Source: Oscillospiraceae bacterium (GTDB lineage: Bacteria; Bacillota; Clostridia; Oscillospirales; CAG-272). Taken from it: DNA of 62,669 nt. Position numbers and translations under genes: made by a program. The notes beneath the pieces are model-generated. The model was not told the origin of the DNA. It was given only the letters and a program-made list of their open reading frames with translations, and searched no databases. This document shows positions 6,456 to 53,329 of the stretch, piece by piece (positions within the stretch are counted from its first letter, which is position 1; the number at the start of each line of letters is the position of its first letter). Where the stretch lies: assembly GCA_015063585.1 (NCBI GenBank), contig SVTW01000006.1, forward strand, positions 1 through 62,669, given 5' to 3'.

Positions 6456-6484
6456 ATTATAACATAATCATATCCATTTGTCAA
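6456..6484 (-). promoter_or_regulatory. Promoter of the pyr operon
   Basis: Perfect sigma-A type boxes on the minus strand: TTGACA (6484-6479), 17-nt spacer, TATAAT (6461-6456). The transcript would begin about 190 nt before pyrR, leaving room for the attenuator. Confidence 0.88.
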
Positions 6485-6570: not shown

Positions 6571-6599
6571 TTGACAAGAGTCCGAAAACATGTTATAAT
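6571..6599 (+). promoter_or_regulatory. Promoter of the TerB_N/BrxD-like/helicase cassette
   Basis: TTGACA (6571-6576), 17-nt spacer, TATAAT (6594-6599): consensus sigma-A promoter about 40 nt before the first gene. It is divergent from the pyr promoter, with about 85 nt between the two -35 boxes. Confidence 0.88.
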
Positions 6600-6639
6600 G
6601 AAATATTCCAGAAAATAAAAAAAGAGAGGGGATGAGCAC

Positions 6640-8358
6640 ATGCGTGATGAAAAAAAGAAACGAAACGAGGAGCTTGACAGCTTTTGGGATATCGACGAGC
6701 TGATTCCGCGCCGTCGAGCCGTGCATCATGCCGCAAACACCGAAGCCGCCGAGATCATCGTGCCGCCCCCTGCCTCACAGCAACCGCCCGCCAATGCAGA
6801 GGCGCAAACGATCCCCCCACGCGGCGAGGTAAAGCCACGCTTCATTCCGCCGCATACTGCCGAGGAGGAGGCAAACCGTCCCGCGCCTCTGCTTGAATAC
6901 ACCCCCGAAAACGCGCTGATCCGACATGTGAGAGTCTATTCTTGGAAAAGCAACTACCGTTATTACGAGGGTTTTACGCGAGATGCCGAGCGACTGATGA
7001 ACGCCAAGGGCGCGGAATGCCCGCGGACTCCCTTTTTCTCCTACGTCCCGCAGTACGGGCAGATGAGTCGCGCACAGCTTGAGTGGTATCTTTGGTGGCG
7101 TTCGCACGTGCGTCAAGGAATCTACCTTGACACCGATTACAGCTATGTTCTGCTCTACGTTTACGAGCTGATCAATCTTTCCGACCGCATGGACGCACGC
7201 GAGGTGCGTGATACGCTCTGTCGGGTATGGGCACACTACCGCGATACCTTTTATCAGCTTGACACCTATCTGCCCGAGTGGATCTGCGATTGCAGCCTGC
7301 TTCACCGCCTGCCGCCACCCGATTTTGAGAGCAATACGCTCCTGTCCGCGGCAATGTCACACAGCACACTCAAGGAATTTTTCATTCCCTCACAAGGCGA
7401 CGACGGATACCTCAGCGCGCTTCTCGCGTTTTGCTGTAATTACGACTACCGTAAAAGTAAATTCTACGTAGGTGAGCACGTTGCTCTTTTTGACAAGGCG
7501 ATCCTGAGCGCACTTCGCGAGGTGGTGGCACACACCAGCAAAAACGGTCATTTGTTTGTTTCGGCAAAGCTGGACGACAGCCGCTTGAAGCGTGACGCTT
7601 ATATGGGCGCGCTTTGCTCTTACCGCATCAAGAAAAAAATTGAGGTGGAGTATTGCTCTTTTTCACGTTCGCATGAGCTGCGCTATTTTCTCACCGACGT
7701 CATTAAATATACCGAAAATAAGATACGCGGCGCGCTGGGAATCCGCTCACGGCTGAGCATTTATGCCCTTCCAACCGCAATTCGGGAGTTGCTTGATAAC
7801 CACTTGGACGCAATTCTCCCACAAAAGCGAGCGGTAGGCAAGCCCAAGGAGCCCGTTTCCGCAGACTACGAAAAGCTCTATGAGCTCCCGCAAAAGCCGC
7901 TTTCCCTGCAAAATGCCGCCGCGATCGAGCGAAGCTCGTGGGATACCACCGAACGCCTGATCGAAGCATTGTGTGACGAACCGGAAAAGGAAGATGCTCC
8001 CATCGAAAAAGCCGTTGTGTCGGAGCCGACGACAACCGCGTCACCCCTCTCCCCCGCTTTCGAACGATTGCCCCTCCCCCCATCAGCCGCAAATGAGAAC
8101 GATTCCCTCCCAACCGCCGCCTTTTCGGCATATCACGCGTTTCTTTGCGCGGTACGGGAGCGCAATCCCGCGGCACAAAAAAAAGCCGCTTCCGCACACG
8201 GAATGCCGCTTGAGGTCTTGGCAGACGAGATCAACGCGCTTGCCGCCGACCTATTAGGAGATATTTTATTGGAGGAATCCGATTACGGCTTTGCTGTGAT
8301 CGAGGATTACGAATCGCTTCTCCTGCAATTGACGCAGGAGACCGAACAGAAAGGATGA
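6640..8358 (+). CDS. TerB_N domain protein
   Basis: 572 aa, first gene of a three-gene cassette. Residues 1-90 are charged and proline-rich, likely disordered. Residues about 90-300 show the TerB_N signature: PFFSYVPQYGQMSRAQLEWY followed by LWWRSHVRQG at 132-160, then a helical block. The last 70 residues (DEINALAADLLGDILLEESD near 535-555) resemble the TerB_C region. A second low-complexity Pro/Ser/Glu linker (about 430-500) joins the two. TerB_N proteins are associated with tellurium-resistance-type stress and phage-defence operons; the molecular role is unknown. Start chosen at the ATG after AGAGAGGGG. The downstream gene overlaps its stop (ATGA), so the products are probably made together. 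Domain call is from motif recognition; function is inference. Confidence 0.8.
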   Translation: MRDEKKKRNEELDSFWDIDELIPRRRAVHHAANTEAAEIIVPPPASQQPPANAEAQTIPPRGEVKPRFIPPHTAEEEANRPAPLLEYTPENALIRHVRVYSWKSNYRYYEGFTRDAERLMNAKGAECPRTPFFSYVPQYGQMSRAQLEWYLWWRSHVRQGIYLDTDYSYVLLYVYELINLSDRMDAREVRDTLCRVWAHYRDTFYQLDTYLPEWICDCSLLHRLPPPDFESNTLLSAAMSHSTLKEFFIPSQGDDGYLSALLAFCCNYDYRKSKFYVGEHVALFDKAILSALREVVAHTSKNGHLFVSAKLDDSRLKRDAYMGALCSYRIKKKIEVEYCSFSRSHELRYFLTDVIKYTENKIRGALGIRSRLSIYALPTAIRELLDNHLDAILPQKRAVGKPKEPVSADYEKLYELPQKPLSLQNAAAIERSSWDTTERLIEALCDEPEKEDAPIEKAVVSEPTTTASPLSPAFERLPLPPSAANENDSLPTAAFSAYHAFLCAVRERNPAAQKKAASAHGMPLEVLADEINALAADLLGDILLEESDYGFAVIEDYESLLLQLTQETEQKG

Positions 8359-9755
8359 GACAGAACCTTATGGAACAGATAGAACAAAATGTCACTCCGA
8401 AAGTACCCAAGCGCATATTGACCTCCCTGCTTTCCTCTGTGTCGGCGGGTGTTGTGCCGCGTACGGGTGCACCTTATATTGCCATTGGCCGCCGCGATGA
8501 AATTACCGCAATGCTCTCGGATCTGGAAGCCGTAAACGAGGGCGGCGGATCGATGCGCTTTTTGATCGGGCGTTACGGAAGCGGAAAAAGCTTTTTGATG
8601 CAACTGATCCGCGGCTATGCAATCGAACGCGACTTTTTGACGGCAGATGCCGATCTTTCCCCCGAACGCCGACTCTACGGCACGGGCGGCAGCGGTGTTG
8701 CAACCTATCGGGAATTGATGAAAAATCTGGCTTCCAAAGCCTCTCCCGACGGCGGAGCTCTGCCTCGGATCCTGGCGCGATGGGTCAACGACCTGCAAGC
8801 GCAGGTGACGCAAAGCGGAATCTCCCCCGATTCTCCCGCCTTCGGTGATGCGCTCGGAAAGCGCGTGCTGGACACCATGCGCGAGGTGGAGTGCTTGGTT
8901 GGCGGATTTGATTTTGCGCGCGTGATCACGGCATATTACCATGCCTATACAAACGGTGAAGACGACCGCAAGAGTGCCTGCCTGCGCTGGCTTCGCGGAG
9001 AGTTTTCCACAAAAACAGAGGCACGTAACGAGCTGAAATTTGCGGTCTCCACGATCATTGACGACGATAACTGGTATGATTTTCTCAAGCTTTGGGCGGC
9101 ACTCTCGCGCACGATCGGATACCGCGGGCTTGTGGTGTTCATCGACGAGTGCGTGAACCTTTACAAGATCTCACACCGCGTCAGCCGCGAAAACAACTAC
9201 GAAAAGATCCTTTCCATGTTCAACGATACCCTGCAAGGGAGGGCATCCGGACTTGCGCTGATCCTCGGCGGAACGCCGCAGTTTTTGGAGGATACGCGAC
9301 GCGGACTGTTCAGCTATGAGGCACTTCGCAGCCGCCTTTGCGACAGCCGCTTCGCGCTGGAGGGCTTCAAAAATCTGATCGGACCCGTGATTCGTTTGCG
9401 ACGCCTGTCCGACGACGAGCTCTTTGCTCTGATCAGCCGCGTGACAAAGCTCTATGCGCAAAACTACGGGCAGGAGCCGCGCATCACGCAAGAGCAGATG
9501 ATCCAATTTTTGCAGATCTGCCTCGGGCGCGCGGGAGCTGACAGCATGATCACACCGCGTGAGATGCTGCGCGATTATATGACGGTGCTCAATATTCTCA
9601 TGCAAAACCCCGACGCCACGTTTGAGCAGGTGGTTGGCAGTGCCGTCACGCTCAAAACCGATGCCGACGATGGGGATACACCGCCCGACGACGGTAACTC
9701 CCCTGCCCCGAACAACTCGGATCCAAAATTTCGAATTGAGGATATTGAATTTTAA
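8355..9755 (+). CDS. BrxD-like ATP-binding protein (DUF2791 family)
   Basis: 466 aa P-loop ATPase of the family named ATP-binding protein BrxD in some BREX phage-defence loci. Seen: Walker A GRYGSGKS at residues 72-79, Walker B-like VVFIDEC at 260-266, an N-terminal LTSLLSSVSAGVVPR segment before the P-loop, and a late arginine-rich GPVIRLRRLSDDELFALI segment typical of the family. The C-terminal 35 residues are Asp/Pro-rich. The start ATG overlaps the previous stop by 4 nt; an alternative ATG lies at 8370. Predicted partner of the helicase downstream (44-nt gap). No methylase, PglZ, BrxC or BrxL gene is near, so this is not a BREX locus. Confidence 0.82.
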   Translation: MRQNLMEQIEQNVTPKVPKRILTSLLSSVSAGVVPRTGAPYIAIGRRDEITAMLSDLEAVNEGGGSMRFLIGRYGSGKSFLMQLIRGYAIERDFLTADADLSPERRLYGTGGSGVATYRELMKNLASKASPDGGALPRILARWVNDLQAQVTQSGISPDSPAFGDALGKRVLDTMREVECLVGGFDFARVITAYYHAYTNGEDDRKSACLRWLRGEFSTKTEARNELKFAVSTIIDDDNWYDFLKLWAALSRTIGYRGLVVFIDECVNLYKISHRVSRENNYEKILSMFNDTLQGRASGLALILGGTPQFLEDTRRGLFSYEALRSRLCDSRFALEGFKNLIGPVIRLRRLSDDELFALISRVTKLYAQNYGQEPRITQEQMIQFLQICLGRAGADSMITPREMLRDYMTVLNILMQNPDATFEQVVGSAVTLKTDADDGDTPPDDGNSPAPNNSDPKFRIEDIEF

Positions 9756-9799
9756 ATTTTGCGTATAAAGTGACACTTTTCCGAAAAAGGAGGTCTCAT

Positions 9800-12025
9800 A
9801 TGAGCCAAATTTTCGAACGCTTTCCCGATTTTATTCAGGAATATATCTACGCGCACGGTTGGGAAAACCTGCGTGAGGTGCAGGTGGCGGCGGCGGAAAC
9901 GATTTTTGAAACCGACAAGAACCTGCTCCTCACCTCGTCCACCGCGAGCGGCAAAACCGAGGCGGCATTCTTTCCGATTCTTGCCGAGCTTTGCGAAAAT
10001 CCCTCGGCTACCGTTGCCGTCCTTTATATCGCGCCCCTCAAAAGCCTGATCAACGACCAATTCTACCGCATGGAGGAGCTGCTTGATCAGAGCGGTGTCC
10101 GTGTGACGCATTGGCACGGGGACGTGGCGCAATCGCACAAGAAAAAACTGCTGGACCGTCCCGACGGTATTTTGCAGGTCACGCCCGAATCGCTTGAATC
10201 CATGCTGATCAATCGCTCCAACGACATTGTACGGCTGTTTGGCGACCTGCGTTTCATTGTGATCGACGAGATCCACACGCTCACGGGAAGTGACCGCGGC
10301 AATCAAATTCTCTGCCAGCTCGCTCGCATCGGGCATCTGATTGGGCATCACCCGCGCCGCATCGGACTCTCGGCAACCATTGGCGACCCGCAAAAGGCGG
10401 CGGATTGGCTTGGGGCGGGCAGTGGGAGAGACACTGCGGTTCCCACGTTTGATGCGGGAAAGATCCGTTGGCGGCTCGGCATGGAGCATTTTTATATTCA
10501 AAACGCCAAAACCGAGCAGGCAACCGATCCAAAGGATCAAACCGACGGTCCCGCGCAGGGGCTTGCCTACGACGCGGGCTACTCCTTTATGTATGATTGC
10601 GTTTGTGACCGCAAGTCGCTTGTTTTCTCGAACTCACGTGAGGAGACTGAATATCTGTGCGCCACTTTTCGGCAGATTGCGAAAAATCGCGGCGACCCCG
10701 ACGTATTTTTGATCCATCACGGCAATCTTTCGGCATCGATCCGAGAGGAAGCCGAAATGAAAATGAAGGACACCGACGCAATGGCGGTGACCTGCGCGAC
10801 CGTGACAATGGAGCTCGGAATTGACATTGGGCGGTTGGAGCGGGTCCTTCAGAATCAGTCGCCCAATTCGGTAACCAGCTTTTTGCAACGGCTCGGCAGA
10901 TCGGGCAGACGCGGTCAGCCGCCTGAAATGATGATGGTCTTTCGCGAGGAGGATCCTCTGCCCAACACGCCCTTGCCGCAATTGATCCCATGGGAGCTGC
11001 TCCGAGCAATCGCCATCGTTCAACTCTACATTGAGGAACGCTTTATCGAACCGCCCAACGTCCGTAAGCTCCCTTACAGCCTGCTCTTTCACCAAACGCT
11101 GAGCGTGCTTGCGTCCTCGGGCGAGCTCACGCTCCGTCGCCTTGCCGAGCGCGTGCTTTCCCTGCCCCCCTTTGAAAACGTACCGAAAGAGGACTACAAG
11201 GCACTGATCCTTTCGATGCTCAACAACGATTTTCTCGAAATGACCGAAGAAAAAACGCTGATCGTAGGGCTTGGCGGCGAGCGACTGTTGCGATCCTTCA
11301 AATTCTACGCGGTGTTCAAGGATAGCGAGGACTACACGGTACGCTGCGGCTCGGACGAGATCGGTACCATCACGACCCCGCCTCCCGTGGGCGACCGTTT
11401 TGCCCTGGCGGGACGCGTGTGGGAGGTCGAGGAGCTCGACATTCAGCACAAGCTGATCTACGTCAAAAGCGTGGAAGGAAAGATGGAGGTCTCCTGGCCG
11501 GGTGACTTTGGAGAGGTCCATACGCGGATCCTACAAAGAATGCGCCGTGTGCTGAGCGAGGATACCGTTTATCCTTATCTCAAAGAAAACGCGCAAAAGC
11601 GGCTTGACGTCGCGCGACACGTGGCACGGAACACGGGCATGCTGGAGCATTCGCTCGTGCATTTGGGCGGTTACTCTTGGTGTCTCTTTCCGTGGCTCGG
11701 AACGCGCGCGTTCCGAACGGTCCGCCGCCTGCTTGCTCGCCACGCTACCGAATTCGGCATGAACGGCATTGAATATGAGGGCTGTTATTTCATCACCTTT
11801 AAAATGTCACGCGGAAACGATTATGAACTGATTTCCCGACTTGCCGAGGAGCTCCGCGAGCAGGCGCTGGATCCCGAAACACTTGTTTCGGGTAGCGAGA
11901 TCCCAATTTTTGAAAAATACGACCACTATATCCCAGCCGATCTCTTACGCCATGCCTATGCCACCGACAAGCTCGCGCCCGACGAGGCAACCGCGCGCAT
12001 CTGGGAGATCGAGGAGGAGTTTTGA
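9800..12025 (+). CDS. Lhr-like DEAD/DEAH-box helicase
   Basis: 741 aa superfamily-2 helicase. Motif I SSTASGKTE at residues 46-54, motif Ia APLKSLINDQ, motif II DEIH at 156-159, motif III SAT at 191-193, and motif VI QRLGRSGRRG at 363-372 are all seen. The region after about residue 400 is like the winged-helix and extra C-terminal domains of Lhr/BrxHI-type helicases. Start at ATG 9800, 6 nt after AAAAGGAGG; the in-frame start at 9770 has no such site. Third gene of the cassette; the ATPase and helicase pair matches the brxD-brxHI pair of some BREX loci. Activity on DNA or RNA is inferred from family. Confidence 0.85.
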   Translation: MSQIFERFPDFIQEYIYAHGWENLREVQVAAAETIFETDKNLLLTSSTASGKTEAAFFPILAELCENPSATVAVLYIAPLKSLINDQFYRMEELLDQSGVRVTHWHGDVAQSHKKKLLDRPDGILQVTPESLESMLINRSNDIVRLFGDLRFIVIDEIHTLTGSDRGNQILCQLARIGHLIGHHPRRIGLSATIGDPQKAADWLGAGSGRDTAVPTFDAGKIRWRLGMEHFYIQNAKTEQATDPKDQTDGPAQGLAYDAGYSFMYDCVCDRKSLVFSNSREETEYLCATFRQIAKNRGDPDVFLIHHGNLSASIREEAEMKMKDTDAMAVTCATVTMELGIDIGRLERVLQNQSPNSVTSFLQRLGRSGRRGQPPEMMMVFREEDPLPNTPLPQLIPWELLRAIAIVQLYIEERFIEPPNVRKLPYSLLFHQTLSVLASSGELTLRRLAERVLSLPPFENVPKEDYKALILSMLNNDFLEMTEEKTLIVGLGGERLLRSFKFYAVFKDSEDYTVRCGSDEIGTITTPPPVGDRFALAGRVWEVEELDIQHKLIYVKSVEGKMEVSWPGDFGEVHTRILQRMRRVLSEDTVYPYLKENAQKRLDVARHVARNTGMLEHSLVHLGGYSWCLFPWLGTRAFRTVRRLLARHATEFGMNGIEYEGCYFITFKMSRGNDYELISRLAEELREQALDPETLVSGSEIPIFEKYDHYIPADLLRHAYATDKLAPDEATARIWEIEEEF

Positions 12026-12187
12026 GTCGAACACCGCCCCTTCCAACACGTGTCAATTGGTTATAAAGGATCAGAAAAGCACGAAATTCTCGCATTTCGG
12101 GAGTAATTCCTTCCCTTCGGGGTGGTATTCTTTCTGACGGAATGATAGAATGATATCACAGAAAAAGAAATGCGAGGAGGCATTGCT

Positions 12188-13501
12188 ATGGAAAAGAAAA
12201 CGATCGGTAAATTTATTTCAGCTTTGCGGAAAGCAAACGGTATGACCCAGAAAGAGCTTGGTGAAAAGCTTTTTGTTTCGGATAAAACGGTAAGCCGATG
12301 GGAATGCGACGAATGCACGCCTGAGCTCTCACTGATCCCTTCAATCGCCGAAATTTTTAACATCACCACCGACGAGCTTCTGCGCGGAGAACGAAATAAT
12401 CCCGACAGAAAGGTTGCGGATTTTGAGGAGACCGCAAGTAAGCAAAAAGCACGAAGTGAAAAACAATTCAAGCTGATGCTTCACAATCGAAAAAAGCAGT
12501 TTACCAACCTCTCCTTTATTTCGATCGGTCTTATGATCGTAGGACTGATTGCTGCTATGATATGCAACCTCGGTTTTTCAAAGGGACTACTCGGCTTCTG
12601 TCTTGCCGGCGTATTTCTGGTAGCGGCAACAATCTGCCAGATCTGTTTTACCGTAAGCGTTCGATTACTTGTGGATGAAGAAGATACAGAACACGCGGAG
12701 AACATTAAAAAGGCGAACACGGAGATGGTGTTCGCCTCGGTCAAGATATTCTTTGGAATACTTTTGATGTTTGCATTTTGCCTACCGATCGCGGTACTCA
12801 CGCTGGAATATTACAACAGTCATTATGGGTTGGTTTTAAATTCTTGGCTTTTATTTGGTATGCTGTTTCTTTCCGCAGCGTTTCTGGTTGGCTTTTGTAT
12901 TTATAGAATTTTCATTTTAAAGTTTTTGATAGATCGCAAGATCATTTGGCTTAATGAGACAGACATTGGTCAGGTAAATACAAAAAGATGCCTTTTGAAA
13001 AGGATCTGCGCGGTCTTTTTGATGGTATCAGCGATTATTATGCTGATAACGTATGTTGTAACCGAAAATATCAGTGAATCCGACTTTGTTCAAAAGCAAA
13101 CGTTTGACAATCCCAATGATTTTATTACGTACATGCAAAATCAATACGACAAATGGTATCAGGAAGGCTACGGACCGTTAAATGATGGTACGGTCATAGT
13201 GAATCCCGATGAAGAACCGGAGGTGGATCCGGATTTTAGCGTTCCCTCCTATCCTTCGCAATCATGGGGCAAAATAGATGGGAAAGAATATTATTATTGC
13301 GCCCATTTGTATGAATCGGTTACCATTCTGCGACATAAGTATGGAAACTGGGAAATAATTGTAATAACGAAAGATGCTTACCAAAACGGTCAAGCTATGT
13401 ATTCCGCATTGAACACAGGGTTACTCGCCCTACATATCATCAACCTTCTTACCTGCGTCTTGTGGTATTTTATAGCGACCAAAAAGCAAAAACCGGCGTA
13501 A
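12188..13501 (+). CDS. XRE-family HTH protein with membrane domain
   Basis: 437 aa. Residues 1-65 form an XRE helix-turn-helix: ISALRKANGMTQKELGEKLF then VSDKTVSRWE. A basic linker follows, then five or six hydrophobic segments (about residues 105-290 and one near the C-terminus), with a polar, probably extracytoplasmic stretch of about 110 residues between the last two (SESDFVQKQTFDNPND onward). This layout suggests a membrane-bound transcription regulator that senses something outside the cell. ATG 12188 chosen because it follows GCGAGGAGG. It lies 162 nt after the helicase stop with no terminator seen between, but whether it belongs to the cassette is unclear. AT-richer than the upstream genes. 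Confidence 0.72.
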   Translation: MEKKTIGKFISALRKANGMTQKELGEKLFVSDKTVSRWECDECTPELSLIPSIAEIFNITTDELLRGERNNPDRKVADFEETASKQKARSEKQFKLMLHNRKKQFTNLSFISIGLMIVGLIAAMICNLGFSKGLLGFCLAGVFLVAATICQICFTVSVRLLVDEEDTEHAENIKKANTEMVFASVKIFFGILLMFAFCLPIAVLTLEYYNSHYGLVLNSWLLFGMLFLSAAFLVGFCIYRIFILKFLIDRKIIWLNETDIGQVNTKRCLLKRICAVFLMVSAIIMLITYVVTENISESDFVQKQTFDNPNDFITYMQNQYDKWYQEGYGPLNDGTVIVNPDEEPEVDPDFSVPSYPSQSWGKIDGKEYYYCAHLYESVTILRHKYGNWEIIVITKDAYQNGQAMYSALNTGLLALHIINLLTCVLWYFIATKKQKPA

Positions 13502-13791
13502 TATTTGCAGTTACCCATATAACGCTATAGAAGGGTAAGACTGCATGCTCCCCTTTCCATCGAAAGAACGCTTCGCGCGAACGCAACTGTTGCAAGCAAA
13601 ATTGGACCGAACAGTCGCTATGCGGCAATCGGTTTTGCATAGCCAATTTCCCGCGCCAAAAAAGAACAGGCACACTGCGGGAAACGGGACTTGAACTCCG
13701 TACATAGCGCCTGCGGCGCAGAGAAGTCTTCTTGCGACTGTTCCACTCGCAAGAAACATTCGGTAGACTTCTCGCAACCATCCGCTCACAA

Positions 13792-13832
13792 AAAAACAAA
13801 ACAGACACCCTGTAGGTGTCTGTTTTGTTTTT
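13792..13832 (-). terminator. Duplicated terminator in tRNA-Leu array
   Basis: Perfect 18-bp stem AAAAACAAAACAGACACC with a 5-nt loop (CTGTA on the plus strand), followed by further As on the plus strand (U-run on minus). Same sequence as the hairpin at 13950-13990, so the terminator was duplicated together with the tRNA end. Confidence 0.85.
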
Positions 13833-13949
13833 GGTGCGGGAAACGGGACTTGAACTCCGTACATAGCGCCTGCGGCGCAGAGAAGTCTTCTTGCGACTGT
13901 TCCACTCGCAAGAAACATTCGGTAGACCTCTCGCAACCATACTCTCGCA

Positions 13950-13990
13950 AAAAACAAAACAGACACCCTGTAGGTGTCTGTTTTGTTTTT
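13950..13990 (-). terminator. Terminator of tRNA-Leu
   Basis: Perfect 18-bp stem starting at the CCA end of tRNA-Leu, 5-nt loop, A/U-rich flanks. It abuts the tRNA directly, so the mature 3' end lies at the foot of the hairpin. Confidence 0.88.
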
Positions 13991-14074
13991 GGTGCGGGAA
14001 ACGGGACTTGAACCCGTACGGTGTGAACCACACGCCCCTCAAACGTGCGCGTCTGCCAGTTCCGCCACTCCCGC
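13990..14074 (-). tRNA. tRNA-Leu(GAG)
   Basis: 85 nt including encoded CCA. Acceptor GCGGGAG pairs with TTCCCGC (G-U allowed), D-arm has the TGGCAGACGC segment, anticodon loop TTGAGGG gives GAG, the long variable arm marks class II, and the T-loop is GTTCAAGTC. It is the parent of the array on its left. Confidence 0.93.
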
Positions 14075-14104
14075 GTATCGCGCCTTGTCATGCGCAACAG
14101 GTAT

Positions 14105-14132
14105 ATTATACACCTTTTTTGAAAAATGTCAA
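14105..14132 (-). promoter_or_regulatory. Promoter of tRNA-Leu
   Basis: Minus strand TTGACA (14132-14127), 16-nt spacer, TATAAT (14110-14105), about 30 nt before the tRNA. Confidence 0.85.
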
Positions 14133-14284
14133 GTCTTTTTTCGAAAAAAATTTGGTTTTTTTGATTTTTTTATTTTTTCATTCAATATTCTAATCAAAGA
14201 CGGCATTCCCCCGCGTTTTTTTACATTCGAATTTCTAAAAACGCAAAAAAGATTTGAAAAAAACATTTTTTTTAAAAAATCCTC

Positions 14285-14313
14285 TTGACAAAAAAAGAAG
14301 TGTATGGTATAAT
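14285..14313 (+). promoter_or_regulatory. Promoter of the tRNA-Gly/Arg/His operon
   Basis: TTGACA (14285-14290), 17-nt spacer, TATAAT (14308-14313), 28 nt upstream of tRNA-Gly. The 120 nt before it are very AT-rich. Confidence 0.88.
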
Positions 14314-14341
14314 AGCAAGGTACTTGTGAAACAGGACATAT

Positions 14342-14415
<74 letters not shown>

Positions 14416-14454
14416 AAGGATTTGCTTCCCGTATCACGGGAAGCTTTCCTTGAT

Positions 14455-14531
<77 letters not shown>

Positions 14532-14542
14532 TTTTATAATAT

Positions 14543-14620
14543 GGTGGGATTAGCACAGTTGGTTAGCGCGTCAGGTTGTGGCCCTGAAGGTCGTGGGTTC
14601 GAATCCCATATCTCACCCCA
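14543..14620 (+). tRNA. tRNA-His(GTG)
   Basis: 78 nt with encoded CCA and the extra G at position -1 that pairs with C73, a hallmark of bacterial tRNA-His. Anticodon loop TTGTGGC gives GTG. Last tRNA of the operon and parent of the array on its right. Confidence 0.94.
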
Positions 14621-15045
14621 GAACAAGATACCTCTACGCTACGCGTAGAGGTATCTTGTTTTCGTGTCAGCCTATCATTCGTGCCCCGCGAATCTTTGAT
14701 TCGCCGGAACGTGCGCCACATAGCACATACACCTACACGTGAACGTATGCGCACGTTTGGGTTCAGAATCCCATCTTCCCCCCCTTTTTTACGCGTAGTT
14801 TTTTACGCTACGCGTAGAGGTATCTTGTTTTCGTGTCAGCCTATCGTTCGTGCCCCGCGAATCCTTGATTCGCCGGAACGTGCGCACATAGCACATACAC
14901 CTACACGTGAACGTATGCGCACGTTTGGGTTCAGAATCCCATCTTTCCCCCTTTTTTACGCTACGCGTAGAGGTATCTTGTTTTCGCGTCAGCCTATCGT
15001 TCGTGCCCCGCGAATCTTTGATTCGCCGGAACGTGCGCGCGATCC
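14621..15045 (+). repeat. Tandem array of decayed tRNA-His 3' ends plus terminators
   Basis: The 3' half of the tRNA-His terminator recurs at 14811 and 14964 (periods 169 and 153 bp). Each recurrence is preceded by a copy of the T-arm region, GGGTTCAGAATCCCATCTT instead of GGGTTCGAATCCCATATCT, followed by a C-run in place of CACCCCA. The spacer includes a GCGAATC-TTT-GATTCGC hairpin and the motif CGCCGGAACGTGCGC. The third unit is cut off before the T-arm, 50 nt before the EamA gene. Same plan as the tRNA-Leu array, but from a different tRNA and with different spacer. Confidence 0.83.
14622..14664 (+). terminator. Terminator of the tRNA operon
   Basis: Perfect 17-bp stem AACAAGATACCTCTACG with a 5-nt loop, then TTTTC. 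It starts one base after the CCA of tRNA-His. Confidence 0.9.
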
Positions 15046-47576: not shown

Positions 47577-48767
47577 TTACCCCTTGCCAATCATTTCCGC
47601 GGGTATGCGGTCGATCGGATCCGTTCCATCGCTTTGCGCGTTCGGCAGATAGACAATTTGATACGAATAGAGGCTGGTTACCGCACATTCTTCCGAATCG
47701 TCATACAAAACGCTGACCTTGGTGTTGTTGCCAAAGCAATCGTACTCGTAATAGTAGGTTCGAACCGCGCCCTCCCGATCGTAGGTCTGCTCGATCATCT
47801 GCCCGTTCGCGTTGTAACGGTAGGTGATTTTCTGATAGGCATTGGTGGTGTACAAATATCGCCGTATCTCCGTCAGGGTTCCGTTTTCATCGTATTTCCA
47901 TTCGGTGTCAACGATATCGCCATCGCCGTTGAAATAACGGATCTTGTTTCCGTGCTCGTCGTACTCGTATCGACGTTCCATCTGAACAAACTCGGCGCCT
48001 CCGTTTTCAATATCGGTCATTTTGATCAGATCGCCTTGCTCGTTGTATTCATAGATACTCGTTTCAAGATAAAATCCACTGTCGGTCTTCAAAACCTCCT
48101 CGATCATATGTCCTGCCGCATCGTAGCTTCGTTCTCTGAGGTATCCGTTCCCAAGCACCTTTATAATGTTGCCCTGCGCGTCATATTCCAAAAGCGTGAT
48201 GTTCCCGCGTGGATCGTACTGCTTAATGGGATTTCCCGCCGCGTCGTACTCATATATCCAGGTCTCCGCACAGCTCTTACCGGGGTCTCGGGTCCATTGG
48301 GTCAAATTCCCAGCCGCATCATATTGATAGGATCTGGAGGTTGAGAACCCGGTTCCCGAATCGGGAAGGGAATGAAAGGAAACCATTCTGCCAAATTCAT
48401 CGTATTCATACAGTCTCGTATAGCCGCCCTCGTCCTCATAGGCATGCCAAGAGGATGTACGCAGAGACACAAAATCCTCCAGATAGTCCGCCGCATCGGC
48501 ATAGCCGGAAACATGCAAAAAACGCGCGTATGCGCCCTCATCGTCTCCCGCATCAAGCAGAGCAAGCGCCTCTTGGTAGATCTCCGCATCGGTTTTGCCT
48601 TCTGCCCAATCGCTTTCATCGGTTGTGCCGGTTGTGTCGTTGCTCTGATCAGAGCCTGACGCCGTGTTGCTTTCGGTATCCTGCACGGGGCGGTCCGCCG
48701 CGTTACACGCGCCTAAATTCGCCAACAACAAGGCGGATAATAAAATGGCTAAAAGTCTTTTTTTCAA
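47577..48767 (-). CDS. YD/RHS-repeat lipoprotein
   Basis: 396 aa. TTG start at 48767 chosen: AAGGAGAA lies 6 nt upstream and it gives a clean signal peptide with lipobox LANLGAC; upstream in-frame ATGs (48791, 48830) lack a site. An Asp/Thr/Ser linker is followed by a helical part with a SEL1-like look and then about ten YD repeats (YEYDEFGRMVSF, YQYDAAGNLTQW, YEYDEHGNKIRYF and so on, about every 20-25 residues). YD repeats bind carbohydrate or form shells in larger Rhs proteins; here there is no toxin tail, so it is probably a surface binding protein. 23 nt after the FG-GAP-like lipoprotein. Confidence 0.8.
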   Translation of the reverse strand: MKKRLLAILLSALLLANLGACNAADRPVQDTESNTASGSDQSNDTTGTTDESDWAEGKTDAEIYQEALALLDAGDDEGAYARFLHVSGYADAADYLEDFVSLRTSSWHAYEDEGGYTRLYEYDEFGRMVSFHSLPDSGTGFSTSRSYQYDAAGNLTQWTRDPGKSCAETWIYEYDAAGNPIKQYDPRGNITLLEYDAQGNIIKVLGNGYLRERSYDAAGHMIEEVLKTDSGFYLETSIYEYNEQGDLIKMTDIENGGAEFVQMERRYEYDEHGNKIRYFNGDGDIVDTEWKYDENGTLTEIRRYLYTTNAYQKITYRYNANGQMIEQTYDREGAVRTYYYEYDCFGNNTKVSVLYDDSEECAVTSLYSYQIVYLPNAQSDGTDPIDRIPAEMIGKG

Positions 48768-48790
48768 ATTCTGTTCTCCTTTCCGGAACA

Positions 48791-50926
48791 TTATTTCCCG
48801 AAAATATCGGATTCCACATATGGAATACATTCACCTGTTTGCGCATTTACGAGCACTGCCCGCTCGTAATCCACACCGTAAACGTCTCCGCCATCGTCAT
48901 ACCCCGCCCAATGGTGACGGCGTTCGGTCACCATGATCACGCGATAGTAGCCGAAATCGTCATACGGGTCCTCCCGCAGGATCACACGGGTTGTAAGCCT
49001 TGTGCCGGCCGCGCCGGTCGAATCCCCCTCCGCGTCTCGCCAATATGCGTTTGCAAGCTGCCACGCCTCCGCGCCGGAAAGCGTTCGTTCCATCGGCAAC
49101 GCCAAGGGAGCGTATGGAATGGCGGTTTTGGGATGATGTTCAAAATGATGCAATGCATCGCCAAGGGGAAAGGCGCGGTTTTCCCGATAATACTGAACCT
49201 CCATGCCCCCCTTGTTCTCGATCCGCTCCAACTCGCGGGAGGTGAGCTTGAGCCCGTCAAAGGCGATGCGGGATACCCCATAGGTCAGCGTTTTATCCGC
49301 GCGAATCCATGCATAGGAACCGTCGGTATTGAAATGACTGACCACTTGATGCGGGATCGCATAGAGATATACAACGCCCTCATAATAGCGCAAAAGCAAC
49401 GTATCGTGGCAATGGATGACCAGCTCGGTAATGCCGTCCCGGTCCATATCCGTGAGTGTATAGCCCAAATTTTCAATCTCTGCGAGCGCGAGCCCCGAGG
49501 TGGGAGCTTTATACTCCTTCAGATAGCAGAAATTTCCCGTTTTCATATCCAGGATCGGAACGCGATTCCCCACCACGCCAAGAAAGGTTTGCCTTGCGTC
49601 GGCTTGGCAGGCGTAGATCGTATTGTTTACCCCATAGAGCGTAAACTCTGCACAGTTTTCGGTTGTAAACCGATCCGGGGAGGAATACGGCTCTGCAAAT
49701 TCGTCGTATTCATCCTTCGAAATCAGAATTTTTTCGCCGTTCACAAAATAATAATACTGATAATCCCGCTCTCCCGTATCCAATCGCAATGCCTCGTATC
49801 CAAATGCGGCAATCAGTTCCAAGGATCTGCCGTCCGCGGCGATCTGATAGATCTGATGGAGCCGGTTTCCGCCGGAAGCCCCTCCATTGATGTAGATTCG
49901 CCCCTTGTGGTCGATCGCGCAGGTGCGCCCAACGCGGAAATGATCCACCAGATAAGGCTTTCCGTCCACCTTGGTAAAGATCGCAAGCACCTCATGCGAG
50001 CCGTTCAGCAGGATCAGCTCCATGATCCCATCATTGTTGAGATCGCGCACGGTATACTGATACGATGTGCCGGTTGTGCCCTCCCTCACAAACGTGCGGA
50101 TCGATTGGAGCAGCTTTTCAAACCACGTGATCTGTTGCGGGTCGGTAATTCCGAAATGCGTGGGTATATTCGTGCTGTTATCAAGGGTGCCTACCCCCTT
50201 CACCATTTCGCGGTAAAGTACCACGACCGCGGCATAGTCGCTAAAACAGCCGTAAGTGGGCAGAGGAAGCGGGCTCGTTGCCCACTCCAGATCCCGAAAG
50301 ATATCCTTGCTTGTTGCGAAAACCGTTCCGTCGGGGATCTGCGCCAAGTGGACCGATTCGGGGTCTCCCGTATAATTGAGCAGATATTCCTTGTAAAACG
50401 CGCGCTCGTCGAAAAAATCCTGCACAATCAAAATAGGCTGCTCACGCGAAAAATCGCGGTAAGCGATCAGAAATTCATTCACCGACACAACGTTGGAAAA
50501 CACCTTGGATATGCGGTTGTTTTGGACATCGCAGAAGATGCGGTCCTCAAGATCTCCTTTTTGCTGTCGAACCGTGACCACATAGGTATCGTGCATCGAA
50601 AGCGTTACGGGCGAATCGGTTTCCTGCGAGAAAATCGTCTTGCCCGTCAGGTCATAGATGCAGTAGCGGTAACGATTCTCGGCAAGCTGATCCACGCGAT
50701 AATAGGGGGAGCGATTCACAGAGCCCGAATCCTCGGGAATCTGCACGTTCTGATCTGAGGATTGGCTGTCGGTTGTATGTTCCGTACTCTCTGTGCCCGT
50801 GGATTCTCCTGTGCCCGATTCGGTAGCAGACTCCTCGCTGCCCTCCTCCTTCGGCTCAAGCGAAAAGCAGGACGCAAGCGAGAAAAGCAGACAGATGCAA
50901 AGCAAAAATGCGATTCTTTTTTTCAC
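48791..50926 (-). CDS. FG-GAP/VCBS-like lipoprotein, paralog B
   Basis: 711 aa. GTG start at 50926 with AAGGAGA 5 nt upstream. Signal peptide and lipobox LFSLASC, then a Glu/Ser/Thr-rich linker of about 40 residues. Calcium-binding-like DxDxDG loops: VRDLNNDGIMELILLNG and LTDMDRDGITELVIHCH, each with the following strand. The C-terminal 100 residues (SGAEAWQLANAYW, TRLTTRVILRE, VLVNAQTGECIPYV) resemble a PepSY-type module. Strongly similar to paralog A at 50985-53015 (LGVV.NR.P segment, LGYTLTD, LRY..GVVY). Function unknown; surface exposed. Confidence 0.78.
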   Translation of the reverse strand: MKKRIAFLLCICLLFSLASCFSLEPKEEGSEESATESGTGESTGTESTEHTTDSQSSDQNVQIPEDSGSVNRSPYYRVDQLAENRYRYCIYDLTGKTIFSQETDSPVTLSMHDTYVVTVRQQKGDLEDRIFCDVQNNRISKVFSNVVSVNEFLIAYRDFSREQPILIVQDFFDERAFYKEYLLNYTGDPESVHLAQIPDGTVFATSKDIFRDLEWATSPLPLPTYGCFSDYAAVVVLYREMVKGVGTLDNSTNIPTHFGITDPQQITWFEKLLQSIRTFVREGTTGTSYQYTVRDLNNDGIMELILLNGSHEVLAIFTKVDGKPYLVDHFRVGRTCAIDHKGRIYINGGASGGNRLHQIYQIAADGRSLELIAAFGYEALRLDTGERDYQYYYFVNGEKILISKDEYDEFAEPYSSPDRFTTENCAEFTLYGVNNTIYACQADARQTFLGVVGNRVPILDMKTGNFCYLKEYKAPTSGLALAEIENLGYTLTDMDRDGITELVIHCHDTLLLRYYEGVVYLYAIPHQVVSHFNTDGSYAWIRADKTLTYGVSRIAFDGLKLTSRELERIENKGGMEVQYYRENRAFPLGDALHHFEHHPKTAIPYAPLALPMERTLSGAEAWQLANAYWRDAEGDSTGAAGTRLTTRVILREDPYDDFGYYRVIMVTERRHHWAGYDDGGDVYGVDYERAVLVNAQTGECIPYVESDIFGK

Positions 50927-50984
50927 GAAAATCTCCTTTTTATCATTTGTATAAAACACGTTCTCAAATATAAAACATTTTGAT

Positions 50985-53015
50985 TCAATAAGGGTACTGT
51001 TCGTACACATCGGGCTGACACGTTCCCGTTTGAACATGGATCAGCACGCAAGGCTGTTGATGAAAGACTACGTATTCAACGTTGCCGCCAACTCCGTAAT
51101 CCTCATCCGCGGGGCTATACTCGCACACCAGAATCACGCGATAGCAACAAAACGAATCGTCGGGATCCTCAAACAGAAGCACGCGGCTCGTTAGCCGCGT
51201 TCCGGCGACAACGTCGCTTTTCAGGTGCGCATTGCCCCAATAAGCATTGGCAAGCTCCCAAGCTTCCTCGCGGGAGATCGTTCGGTTCAGCGGCAAGGTC
51301 AAGGGTTGATAGGAAAGCTCTCCGGATTGGAGGAGATTGTCGCTTTGGATCCACTCATAGGAATCATTGGTATCGAGGCGATGCATTGTTTGGTCTGAGA
51401 GCGGGTAAAAATACACCACGCCTGCATGATAACGCAGAATGACCGTATCCTGACAATCGATGATCAACTCGGGAACGTAGTCCCAATTGAGGTCTGTGAG
51501 CGTATAGCCCAAATTCTGCACCTCGGTGATCGGACGCCCCGAGGTGAGTGTCTTGCAAGCCGACAAATCGCAAAATTCACCTGTTTCCACATTGAAAACC
51601 GGAATTCGGTTTTCCACGACACCGAGAAAGGCTTGTCTCGCATCAGCTCGGCGGGCTTGATAGAGGCTACCCTTTGCATCAAAAGTTTCTATTCCTGCAA
51701 CCGACTCATTCATGGTGCGATTCGGGAACAGATAGCGCCCCGCGATCGCTTGGTATTCGGATTTGGATACCGAGATCTTTTGTTCGTTCTCGATTTTGAA
51801 ATAATCCGCTGCCATAACATCGTTGATCACTTCGCAATTCTCATATCCAACCGCATCCAGCCACTTCAGTGACTTGCCGTCCTCGGAAATTTGGTAAACG
51901 CGCCACAAAAGATTGTTTTTCCAATCGCCCTCCACCACGTAAATGCGTCCTCTGTGGTCAATCAGGCACTGACGCCCCTCCCAATAATGATCCAATAGGA
52001 CGGGCTTGCCGTCAACCTTGGTAAAGATCGCAACCACCTCGCAATCATTGCGGAGCAGAATCAGCTCAAAGATACCGTCAAAATTCAGATCCTTTACGGC
52101 GTATTGGCATGCCAATTTCGTTTGTTCAGAGGGAAAGAGCGAGCATACCGAATCGGTCAGCCGATCCGCCCACTCAAGCTGCTGTGCATCGATGATTCCG
52201 AACAGCTCGGTATAATCAAGGAGGGCTCCGTAACGGCGGGTTGCTGTATGTATTTGGGAGTAGAGCTCCACAATGGCGGCATAATCGCTAAAAAAACCAT
52301 AATCGGTTTCTTTGAATGTAAATACGGACCAATGCGTTTGTTGCAACGCATTCGACGCATCGAAATAGGTCATAAAGATCCGCCCGTTGAAGAGTTTAAT
52401 GGATTTGATCTGGCTGGTTGTGTAGAGATCACACTCGAGTGAAAATTCTTTGTATAGCTTGGTTTCGTCAAATATATCCTGCGCAACCAGGGTACGCTTG
52501 CCTTTCGTTTCGTCACGGTAGGCAACCACGCCCTCATCCGCCACCACAACATTGGAAAAGCTTTTGGACATGCGCTTGTTTTTGAAATCATAGAATTTGA
52601 TGATATTGGAACCAAAATCATCGGAATAGCTCGTGATGCCAACCACGTACGAACTCTCCATATAAAGGTGTACGGAAACGTCGGTTATTTCCGAAAAAAC
52701 AACTTTGCCGGAAAGACCGTAGATCTGATAGTGCGTTTTGCCACTGGAATACCGATCCACCCGATAATATTTATCGCTGTAGCTATATGCCGGAATGATC
52801 GTGCCCTCCGGCTTTTGCACCTGCGAGGGATCTTTCGTATCCTCGGTCTTTTCCATGCTCTCCGTGCGCTCCGTACTCTCTGTGCCCATGGATCCCCCTG
52901 TTCCCGATTCGGTAGCGGAATCCTCGGGGGTCCCTTTCGTAGGCTCATGCGAAAAGCAGGACGCAAGCGAGAAAAGCAAGCAAAAACAGAGCAAAAGTAC
53001 GGACAGCTTTTTCAT
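50985..53015 (-). CDS. FG-GAP/VCBS-like lipoprotein, paralog A
   Basis: 676 aa from ATG 53015 (AGGGGA, 6 nt). Signal peptide with lipobox LFSLASC. Same order as paralog B: Glu/Ser/Thr linker, beta-rich N-terminal part, loops VKDLNFDGIFELILLRN and LTDLNWDYVPELIIDCQ (the second has lost the canonical DxDxDG), then the PepSY-like C-terminal module (REEAWELANAYWGN, TRLTSRVLLFED, VLIHVQTGTC). Head of a run with paralog B and the YD-repeat gene (gaps 58 and 23 nt). It is the copy with its own promoter. Confidence 0.78.
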   Translation of the reverse strand: MKKLSVLLLCFCLLFSLASCFSHEPTKGTPEDSATESGTGGSMGTESTERTESMEKTEDTKDPSQVQKPEGTIIPAYSYSDKYYRVDRYSSGKTHYQIYGLSGKVVFSEITDVSVHLYMESSYVVGITSYSDDFGSNIIKFYDFKNKRMSKSFSNVVVADEGVVAYRDETKGKRTLVAQDIFDETKLYKEFSLECDLYTTSQIKSIKLFNGRIFMTYFDASNALQQTHWSVFTFKETDYGFFSDYAAIVELYSQIHTATRRYGALLDYTELFGIIDAQQLEWADRLTDSVCSLFPSEQTKLACQYAVKDLNFDGIFELILLRNDCEVVAIFTKVDGKPVLLDHYWEGRQCLIDHRGRIYVVEGDWKNNLLWRVYQISEDGKSLKWLDAVGYENCEVINDVMAADYFKIENEQKISVSKSEYQAIAGRYLFPNRTMNESVAGIETFDAKGSLYQARRADARQAFLGVVENRIPVFNVETGEFCDLSACKTLTSGRPITEVQNLGYTLTDLNWDYVPELIIDCQDTVILRYHAGVVYFYPLSDQTMHRLDTNDSYEWIQSDNLLQSGELSYQPLTLPLNRTISREEAWELANAYWGNAHLKSDVVAGTRLTSRVLLFEDPDDSFCCYRVILVCEYSPADEDYGVGGNVEYVVFHQQPCVLIHVQTGTCQPDVYEQYPY

Positions 53016-53049
53016 AAAAAATCCCCTTTCAAACGGTTCCATTAAGGTC

Positions 53050-53078
53050 AGTATAGCATAGGAAAAAAGGCTTGTCAA
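53050..53078 (-). promoter_or_regulatory. Promoter of the FG-GAP lipoprotein run
   Basis: Minus strand TTGACA (53078-53073), 17-nt spacer, TATACT (53055-53050). The promoter sequence is nearly the same as the one of paralog C at 58621-58649. To its right (53079-53217) there is AT-rich sequence with no feature I can support. Confidence 0.85.
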
Positions 53079-53217
53079 TAGGGTGGGGAAAAGTTTTTTT
53101 ATAGGGCGTTTTTTAGCCCCCGAGTGGAGGAAAAAGCTCATTTTTTGAGAAAAGATCGCCGATGCTCGGCAAACAGAAATGCATCCTATAAAAAACAGAA
53201 ATCGCAAGAAAATAGTA

Positions 53218-53246
53218 TTTACAACCCCAACTTTTTGTGCTATAAT
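53218..53246 (+). promoter_or_regulatory. Promoter of the Gfo/Idh/MocA gene
   Basis: TTTACA (53218-53223), 17-nt spacer, TATAAT (53241-53246), about 85 nt before the start codon. Confidence 0.78.
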
Positions 53247-53329
53247 GGTAAAAAGCCATGTTATGATAACACGGCGCATGTCTTCGGGCAGTCCATTATA
53301 AAAAACAAAAACACGCAAGGAGAAAAATT

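Follow-up and report, generated by a model that had tools for sequence, protein, structure and literature searches.

Shango is an anti-phage operon described from Pseudomonas aeruginosa PA14 that brings together TerB, helicase and ATPase domains (PMC10250203; this and the other PMC papers named here are cited from parts of their text). Its effects on plating in PA14 were modest, 10- to 100-fold, and extended to many but not all of the phages tested. Anti-phage activity was also reported for a Shango trio of Escherichia coli, and a role of Ter domains against phages had formerly been a hypothesis only (PMC10250203). An earlier report of the system is credited to Millman and others (PMC10952713). 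A similar pair of genes occurs in type 2 bacteriophage exclusion (BREX) systems, where BrxD is described as an ORC-Cdc6 AAA+ protein and is proposed to load or activate the helicase BrxHI (PMC12839542). The helicase of Shango, SngC, has been grouped with BrxHI, DruE and DpdJ in one potentially distinct clade (PMC12278908). Here we analysed a Shango trio encoded in a stretch of 62,669 nucleotides (nt) from an Oscillospiraceae bacterium (the window; contig SVTW01000006.1, assembly GCA_015063585.1), together with its relatives in the family, order and class. The system is already known and the window locus itself is an ordinary Shango; what is unusual, and new, lies at the level of the clade, where the system resides like a chromosomal trait.

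Comparison with Shango, BREX and related helicases

Judged by sequence, the trio of the window is Shango, with the whole anti-phage operon sngA-sngB-sngC present. PADLOC names all three proteins, its models being matched over most of their length (residues 80 to 565 in SngA; E-values in Table 1), and the trio also shares with Shango the gene order and the combination of TerB_N and TerB_C, ATPase and superfamily 2 (SF2) helicase domains. The order recurs elsewhere, since plasmids of Paenibacillus and Klebsiella variicola encode a TerB_N protein, an ATP-binding protein and a DEAD/DEAH helicase in the identical arrangement. SngB of the window is 38 to 53% identical to the plasmid copies listed, except for one match of BREX type at 21%. 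In SngA the TerB_N match covers about half of the profile in the 6 resident proteins scanned (those of the family lineage defined below), and most of it in 5 others.

The resemblance to the BrxD-BrxHI pair of type 2 BREX concerns the PF10923 ATPase, the kind of helicase and their pairing in an operon (PMC12839542 in part). Unlike that pair, the trio of the window is led by a TerB protein and matches the Shango models much better: the best BREX models, BrxD for SngB (1.3e−49) and BrxHI for SngC (1e−125), were weaker by 397 bits each. The only match to the Pfam family BrxC_BrxD (PF10923, earlier DUF2791) in the window scans was SngB itself. PglX, PglZ, BrxC and PglW were not found among the direct neighbours of the trio and 32 further open reading frames (ORFs) of the window (Pfam, 1e−10); their absence is expected, since the cassette is a known one whose TerB_N-led order recurs on plasmids. 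An earlier note, made from this DNA alone, had taken the trio for a nucleic-acid-directed defence cassette distinct from BREX. Both points stand, whereas the idea of a new, unnamed cassette does not, the cassette being Shango, whose anti-phage action is in print (PMC10250203).

SngC also gave weaker PADLOC matches to the helicases of Hachiman, Druantia (DruE) and Dpd (DpdJ). The partner proteins of those systems differ from the ones of Shango, and HamA of Hachiman is a nuclease, a domain found in none of the three proteins here. With Lhr-type helicases SngC shares the DEAD and Helicase_C core, and its WH_Lhr match (0.0021) was under the Pfam cut-off. Its best solved chain by sequence was the helicase YprA (1.5e−27).

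Occurrence and inheritance in the family

As a rule, defence systems are gained by transfer and lost again. In the family of the window, SngB was found in 204, SngA in 201 and SngC in 199 of 295 genomes, nearly all with one match (limits of 0.001 for SngB and SngA and 1e−120 for SngC). All three proteins were present in 187 genomes and SngB with SngC in 191; 13 had SngB without SngC, 8 SngC without SngB, and 83 neither. As controls, the universal gene rpoB was detected in 256 of the same 295 genomes and Cas1 in 25 of 146 family genomes. Outside the family the frequency was much lower: at a limit of 1e−70, which would take just one genome (G043, 3.8e−70) from the 204 of the family, SngB occurred in 27 of 390 other genomes of the class (28 of 391 with the genome of the window) and in 41 of 197 genomes of the order, the family's own members counted. 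The close relatives are Clostridia/Oscillospiraceae, many of them from the gut or rumen of ruminants, and the presence of Shango in a gut clade fits a rumen genome survey in which it is among the systems identified by DefenseFinder (PMC13356809). In a further survey, Shango is mentioned as occurring outside defence islands (PMC10924106). In contrast to this near-core presence, many SngB relatives lie on plasmids called conjugative (542 of the 692 records with a match, out of 72,556 plasmid records), at least one of the 692 matches being of BREX type. Two genomes of one genus (G020 and G127, completeness 96 and 94) have SngC and no match to SngA or SngB.

The inheritance of the system was analysed with 61 SngB regions, including that of the window: 46 from family genomes (the residents), 6 from family genomes with a less similar copy (the visitors) and 9 from genomes of the class. 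The 46 residents, and the 17 genomes lacking the system used below, were chosen by hand among the places listed and not at random. The trees were quick ones, built on draft genomes with rpoB as the one marker gene, and the later SngB trees omitted one genome (G645). The 46 resident SngB formed a single branch with a support of 100, apart from the 15 other family and class copies, and the visitors grouped with the class copies. For three further families of the order, the copies of each family made a branch of their own adjoining the residents; when two plasmid copies were added, residents and order relatives stayed together (support 92), in a tree with 11 of the 20 SngB found in the order.

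Within the resident branch, SngB and the core of rpoB had 17 of 43 splits in common (mean of 0.34 and maximum of 4 with shuffled labels), and their path lengths were correlated at 0.49 (largest of 2,000 shuffles, 0.30). None of the SngB splits with a support of at least 95 conflicted with rpoB, and 11 of these 12 were present in the rpoB tree. The agreement was better still for SngC, with 19 of 32 splits in common, a correlation of 0.66 (largest of 1,000 shuffles, 0.28) and no conflict at a support of at least 95. The catalytic motifs were also kept: GSGKS of SngB in 46 of 46 residents and in the 15 others, and in SngC of 38 of 38 residents TASGKTEA of motif I, the D, E and H of motif II, and the Q, R, G, R, S, G and R of motif VI.

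The near-core presence, the single resident branch, the agreement of well-supported splits with rpoB and the conserved motifs together indicate that Shango is here a resident lineage, very probably passed on mainly vertically within the family, and probably also in those three related order families, and lost repeatedly on the way. The stable clade trait suspected in the earlier note is thus borne out by the 204 carriers, their single branch and the rpoB trees. Weighing against vertical descent, 8 of the 27 SngB splits with a support of at least 80 conflict with rpoB. The losses are apparent in an rpoB tree of 69 genomes, in which residency changes at least 11 times (the 17 absentees having been included on purpose), and in the genus of the window itself the system is missing from 3 of 10 genomes. 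The resident lineage differs from Shango elsewhere in being near-core and mainly vertical, and in having sngC apart from sngAB in 18 of 46 copies versus 1 of the 15 others. No account of Shango being inherited vertically or having split loci was found in the literature searched, which left subscription journals mostly aside.

Separate sngC loci, mechanism and alternative roles

Linkage was counted genome-wide among the matches listed (150 places for SngB, 150 for SngA and 149 for SngC). SngA and SngB were adjacent in 107 of 118 genomes. For SngB and SngC, 115 genomes were compared: 71 had the two starts no more than 2.6 kb apart, 10 had both genes on one contig at a greater distance, and 34 had them on separate contigs. 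In the fetched regions, in which contig ends could be ruled out, sngC was linked in 27 of the 46 residents (counting the window) and undecided in 1; in the other 18 it did not occur in the 4 kb or more that follow sngB. Among the 15 non-resident copies, it lay within the region in 14. The trio is therefore not always scattered in relatives, the finding that the earlier note had named as fatal to its cassette, yet its helicase gene has moved away in many of them. Of the 18 unlinked residents, 16 carry SngC elsewhere in the genome, and the other two (G039 and G192) have none at 1e−120. Around 11 unlinked sngC loci, within the 12.7 to 19.9 kb fetched for each, neither sngA nor sngB was found. Three resident loci (L115, L116 and L144) have extra ORFs between sngB and sngC, in gaps of 1,375, 1,580 and 1,958 nt. 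Two genomes have a small ORF next to sngA that had clustered with SngA; on reading it looked unrelated and was set aside.

These observations tentatively suggest a near-core, vertically inherited trio whose helicase, encoded at a locus of its own in many genera, acts there in trans, with a standing role bordering immunity and chromosome or replication maintenance; we regard this as possible rather than probable. The resident lineage would thus serve either standing immunity or a chromosome function. A near-core Shango that largely follows the species tree, with motifs intact despite a relocated helicase gene, offers a natural experiment, from which one can learn which partners have to work jointly, whether an immune system can turn into a housekeeping one, and what role the fast-evolving SngA plays.

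For the way the trio works we propose a scheme that we hold with some reserve, a little short of an even chance as a whole. SngA would bind or mark DNA through its C-terminal domain, whose residues 488 to 572 are modelled as a winged-helix-like fold with moderate confidence, and would act as a sensor or adaptor; nothing observed points to the role of membrane adapter that the earlier note had suggested for TerB_N. SngB, which like BrxD is an AAA+ ATPase of the ORC/Cdc6 type, would oligomerise and load or activate SngC, a step modelled by analogy on the proposal for BrxD and BrxHI (PMC12839542). SngC, a BrxHI-like SF2 helicase, would then translocate on the marked phage DNA and stop phage replication, the resident system acting as standing innate immunity. 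No nuclease domain above the Pfam cut-off was found in any of the three proteins, the ResIII match being the helicase core, which makes strand remodelling likelier than direct cutting by the trio. We found no mechanism paper on Shango in the literature searched. One SngA from the class (L130:5634-9236) is 1,201 residues long, with some 600 extra N-terminal residues that lack a Pfam match.

The strongest competing explanation, rather unlikely but of some weight, is that the resident lineage has been co-opted to maintain the chromosome, for instance by resolving blocked forks or transcription complexes, its anti-phage action being secondary or lost. Its near-core and mainly vertical occurrence with one match in nearly all carriers would fit such a role, as would the retention of sngC when unlinked and its conservation, which is close to that of the rpoB core (median path length of 1.07 versus 1.24, identity of 66.7% versus 74.9%; the identity table comprises 34 genomes, 12 of the 46 residents lying outside it for want of a usable SngA, SngC or rpoB). 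In six genomes of five genera, alaS adjoins sngA-sngB on its 3' side, on the same strand and 3 to 115 nt on, which also points this way. On the other side, the repeated losses, even within the window's own genus, suggest that the system is dispensable, the fast divergence of SngA is what a pathogen sensor may show, and the related Pseudomonas trio is anti-phage (PMC10250203).

It is improbable that the window holds an ordinary mobile cassette, recently acquired, in a defence island near a tRNA cluster. Four tRNA genes do lie at 13990-14620, with the 3' end of tRNA-Leu duplicated at 13832, SngB relatives occur on plasmids as counted above, and the site varies within the genus, PyrC and SngB being on different contigs in all five relatives that have both, the comparison made in search of an empty site. 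But the SngB and SngC of the window fall inside the resident clade with their own genus, and the two copies of the tRNA-Leu end, at 13832 and 13990, both follow the trio, with none upstream of it. No integrase was matched at 1e−10 (Pfam) in 32 of the 53 ORFs of at least 200 residues listed from position 14,000 on, a scan that did not extend to the shorter ORFs there. Nor do the surroundings set the residents apart. PADLOC (1e−15) was run on the 93 nearest among 177 candidate genes flanking the resident loci and on 93 of 100 flanking the 15 other loci, and matches were few in both sets: DinG, dGTPase, a UvrD-type helicase and a MADS model in the former, MADS, UvrD-type and PDC candidates in the latter. 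The two sets of loci are thus not clearly different as defence islands. Two Mutator transposases near the 15 other loci gave no contrast with the residents, for which the 25 commonest of 78 neighbour families were seen.

Slightly less credible again is a stress module of the Ter type, directed at chemical stress and not at phage; SngA does have TerB_N and TerB_C domains, and the phage role of such domains was formerly conjectural as said above, but the trio matches Shango, and TerD, TerC and TerY were found neither in the window ORFs scanned nor among the 25 commonest of the 78 and of the 107 neighbour Pfam families. That the locus is a decayed type 2 BREX, reduced to brxD-brxHI and joined by a TerB_N gene, is barely credible: SngB and SngC do match BrxD and BrxHI, but the Shango models lead by the margin given above for both, the TerB_N-led trio is a published architecture (PMC10250203) recurring on plasmids of other groups, and no BREX family is among the 20 PADLOC families matched in the 93 nearest resident neighbours (1e−15).

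The window locus and its surroundings

The three ORFs of the trio lie on one strand (Table 1), sngA and sngB overlapping by 4 nt and sngB and sngC being separated by 44 nt. The latter distance is counted to the ATG at 9800, the likely start of sngC, which has AAGGAGG six bases upstream; the frame is open from a GTG at 9770 (751 residues). Gene order, overlap and gap had all been described correctly in the earlier note, as had the P-loop, DEIH and QRLGRSGRRG motifs. Its call of TerB_N and DUF2791 was upheld by significant Pfam matches, to which one to TerB_C is added, and that of a promoter-led unit by a sigma-70-type promoter agreeing with the consensus at every position. Promoter-like sites in this region numbered 6, against a mean of 3.2 in shuffled sequences.

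Table 1. Positions of the features of the Shango locus in the window
Feature	Position	Strand	Evidence
Sigma-70-type promoter TTGACA-17-TATAAT, extended −10	6571..6599	+	12/12 consensus positions
sngA, TerB_N ... TerB_C protein, 572 aa	6640..8358	+	PADLOC SngA 1.5e−54; Pfam TerB_N, TerB_C
TerB_N domain of SngA, residues 103-224, profile positions 24-137 of 207	6946..7311	+	Pfam 2.4e−20
TerB_C domain of SngA, residues 426-561	7915..8322	+	Pfam 2e−7
sngB, BrxD-like AAA+ ATPase, 466 aa	8355..9755	+	PADLOC SngB 4.5e−170; PF10923 1.4e−158
SngB Walker A motif RYGSGKS	8571..8591	+	
sngC, SF2 helicase, 741 aa from ATG 9800	9800..12025	+	PADLOC SngC 1.4e−245; Pfam DEAD 2.6e−28, Helicase_C 1.4e−14
SngC motif I SSTASGKTEAA	9935..9967	+	
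SngC motif II VIDEIHTL	10259..10282	+	
SngC motif VI QRLGRSGRRG	10886..10915	+	

Upstream, the divergent genes of the minus strand gave matches to the families of phosphoribosyltransferase, dihydroorotase and the large chain of carbamoyl-phosphate synthase, in keeping with the pyr operon mentioned in the earlier note, and have an equally perfect promoter on the opposite strand (6456-6484). Downstream, 144 nt after sngC and on the same strand, a 443-residue protein with an N-terminal Cro/CI-type helix-turn-helix (HTH_3) is encoded at 12170-13501, outside Shango. It is followed at 13676-14013 by a tandem duplication of 158 to 159 nt that ends inside the tRNA-Leu gene and repeats the 3' end of that gene (25 nt, one mismatch); it may be an old att-like duplication. 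Directly after the Gly-Arg-His tRNA cluster, an 87-nt repeat occurs three times at 14630-15038, with spacings of 169 and 153 nt. Farther on, the stretch 47580-53318 begins with an RHS-repeat match (47580-48830) and continues with two long overlapping minus-strand ORFs; neither has a Pfam match at 1e−10, the nearer one is in another frame, and the whole is perhaps one disrupted large gene.

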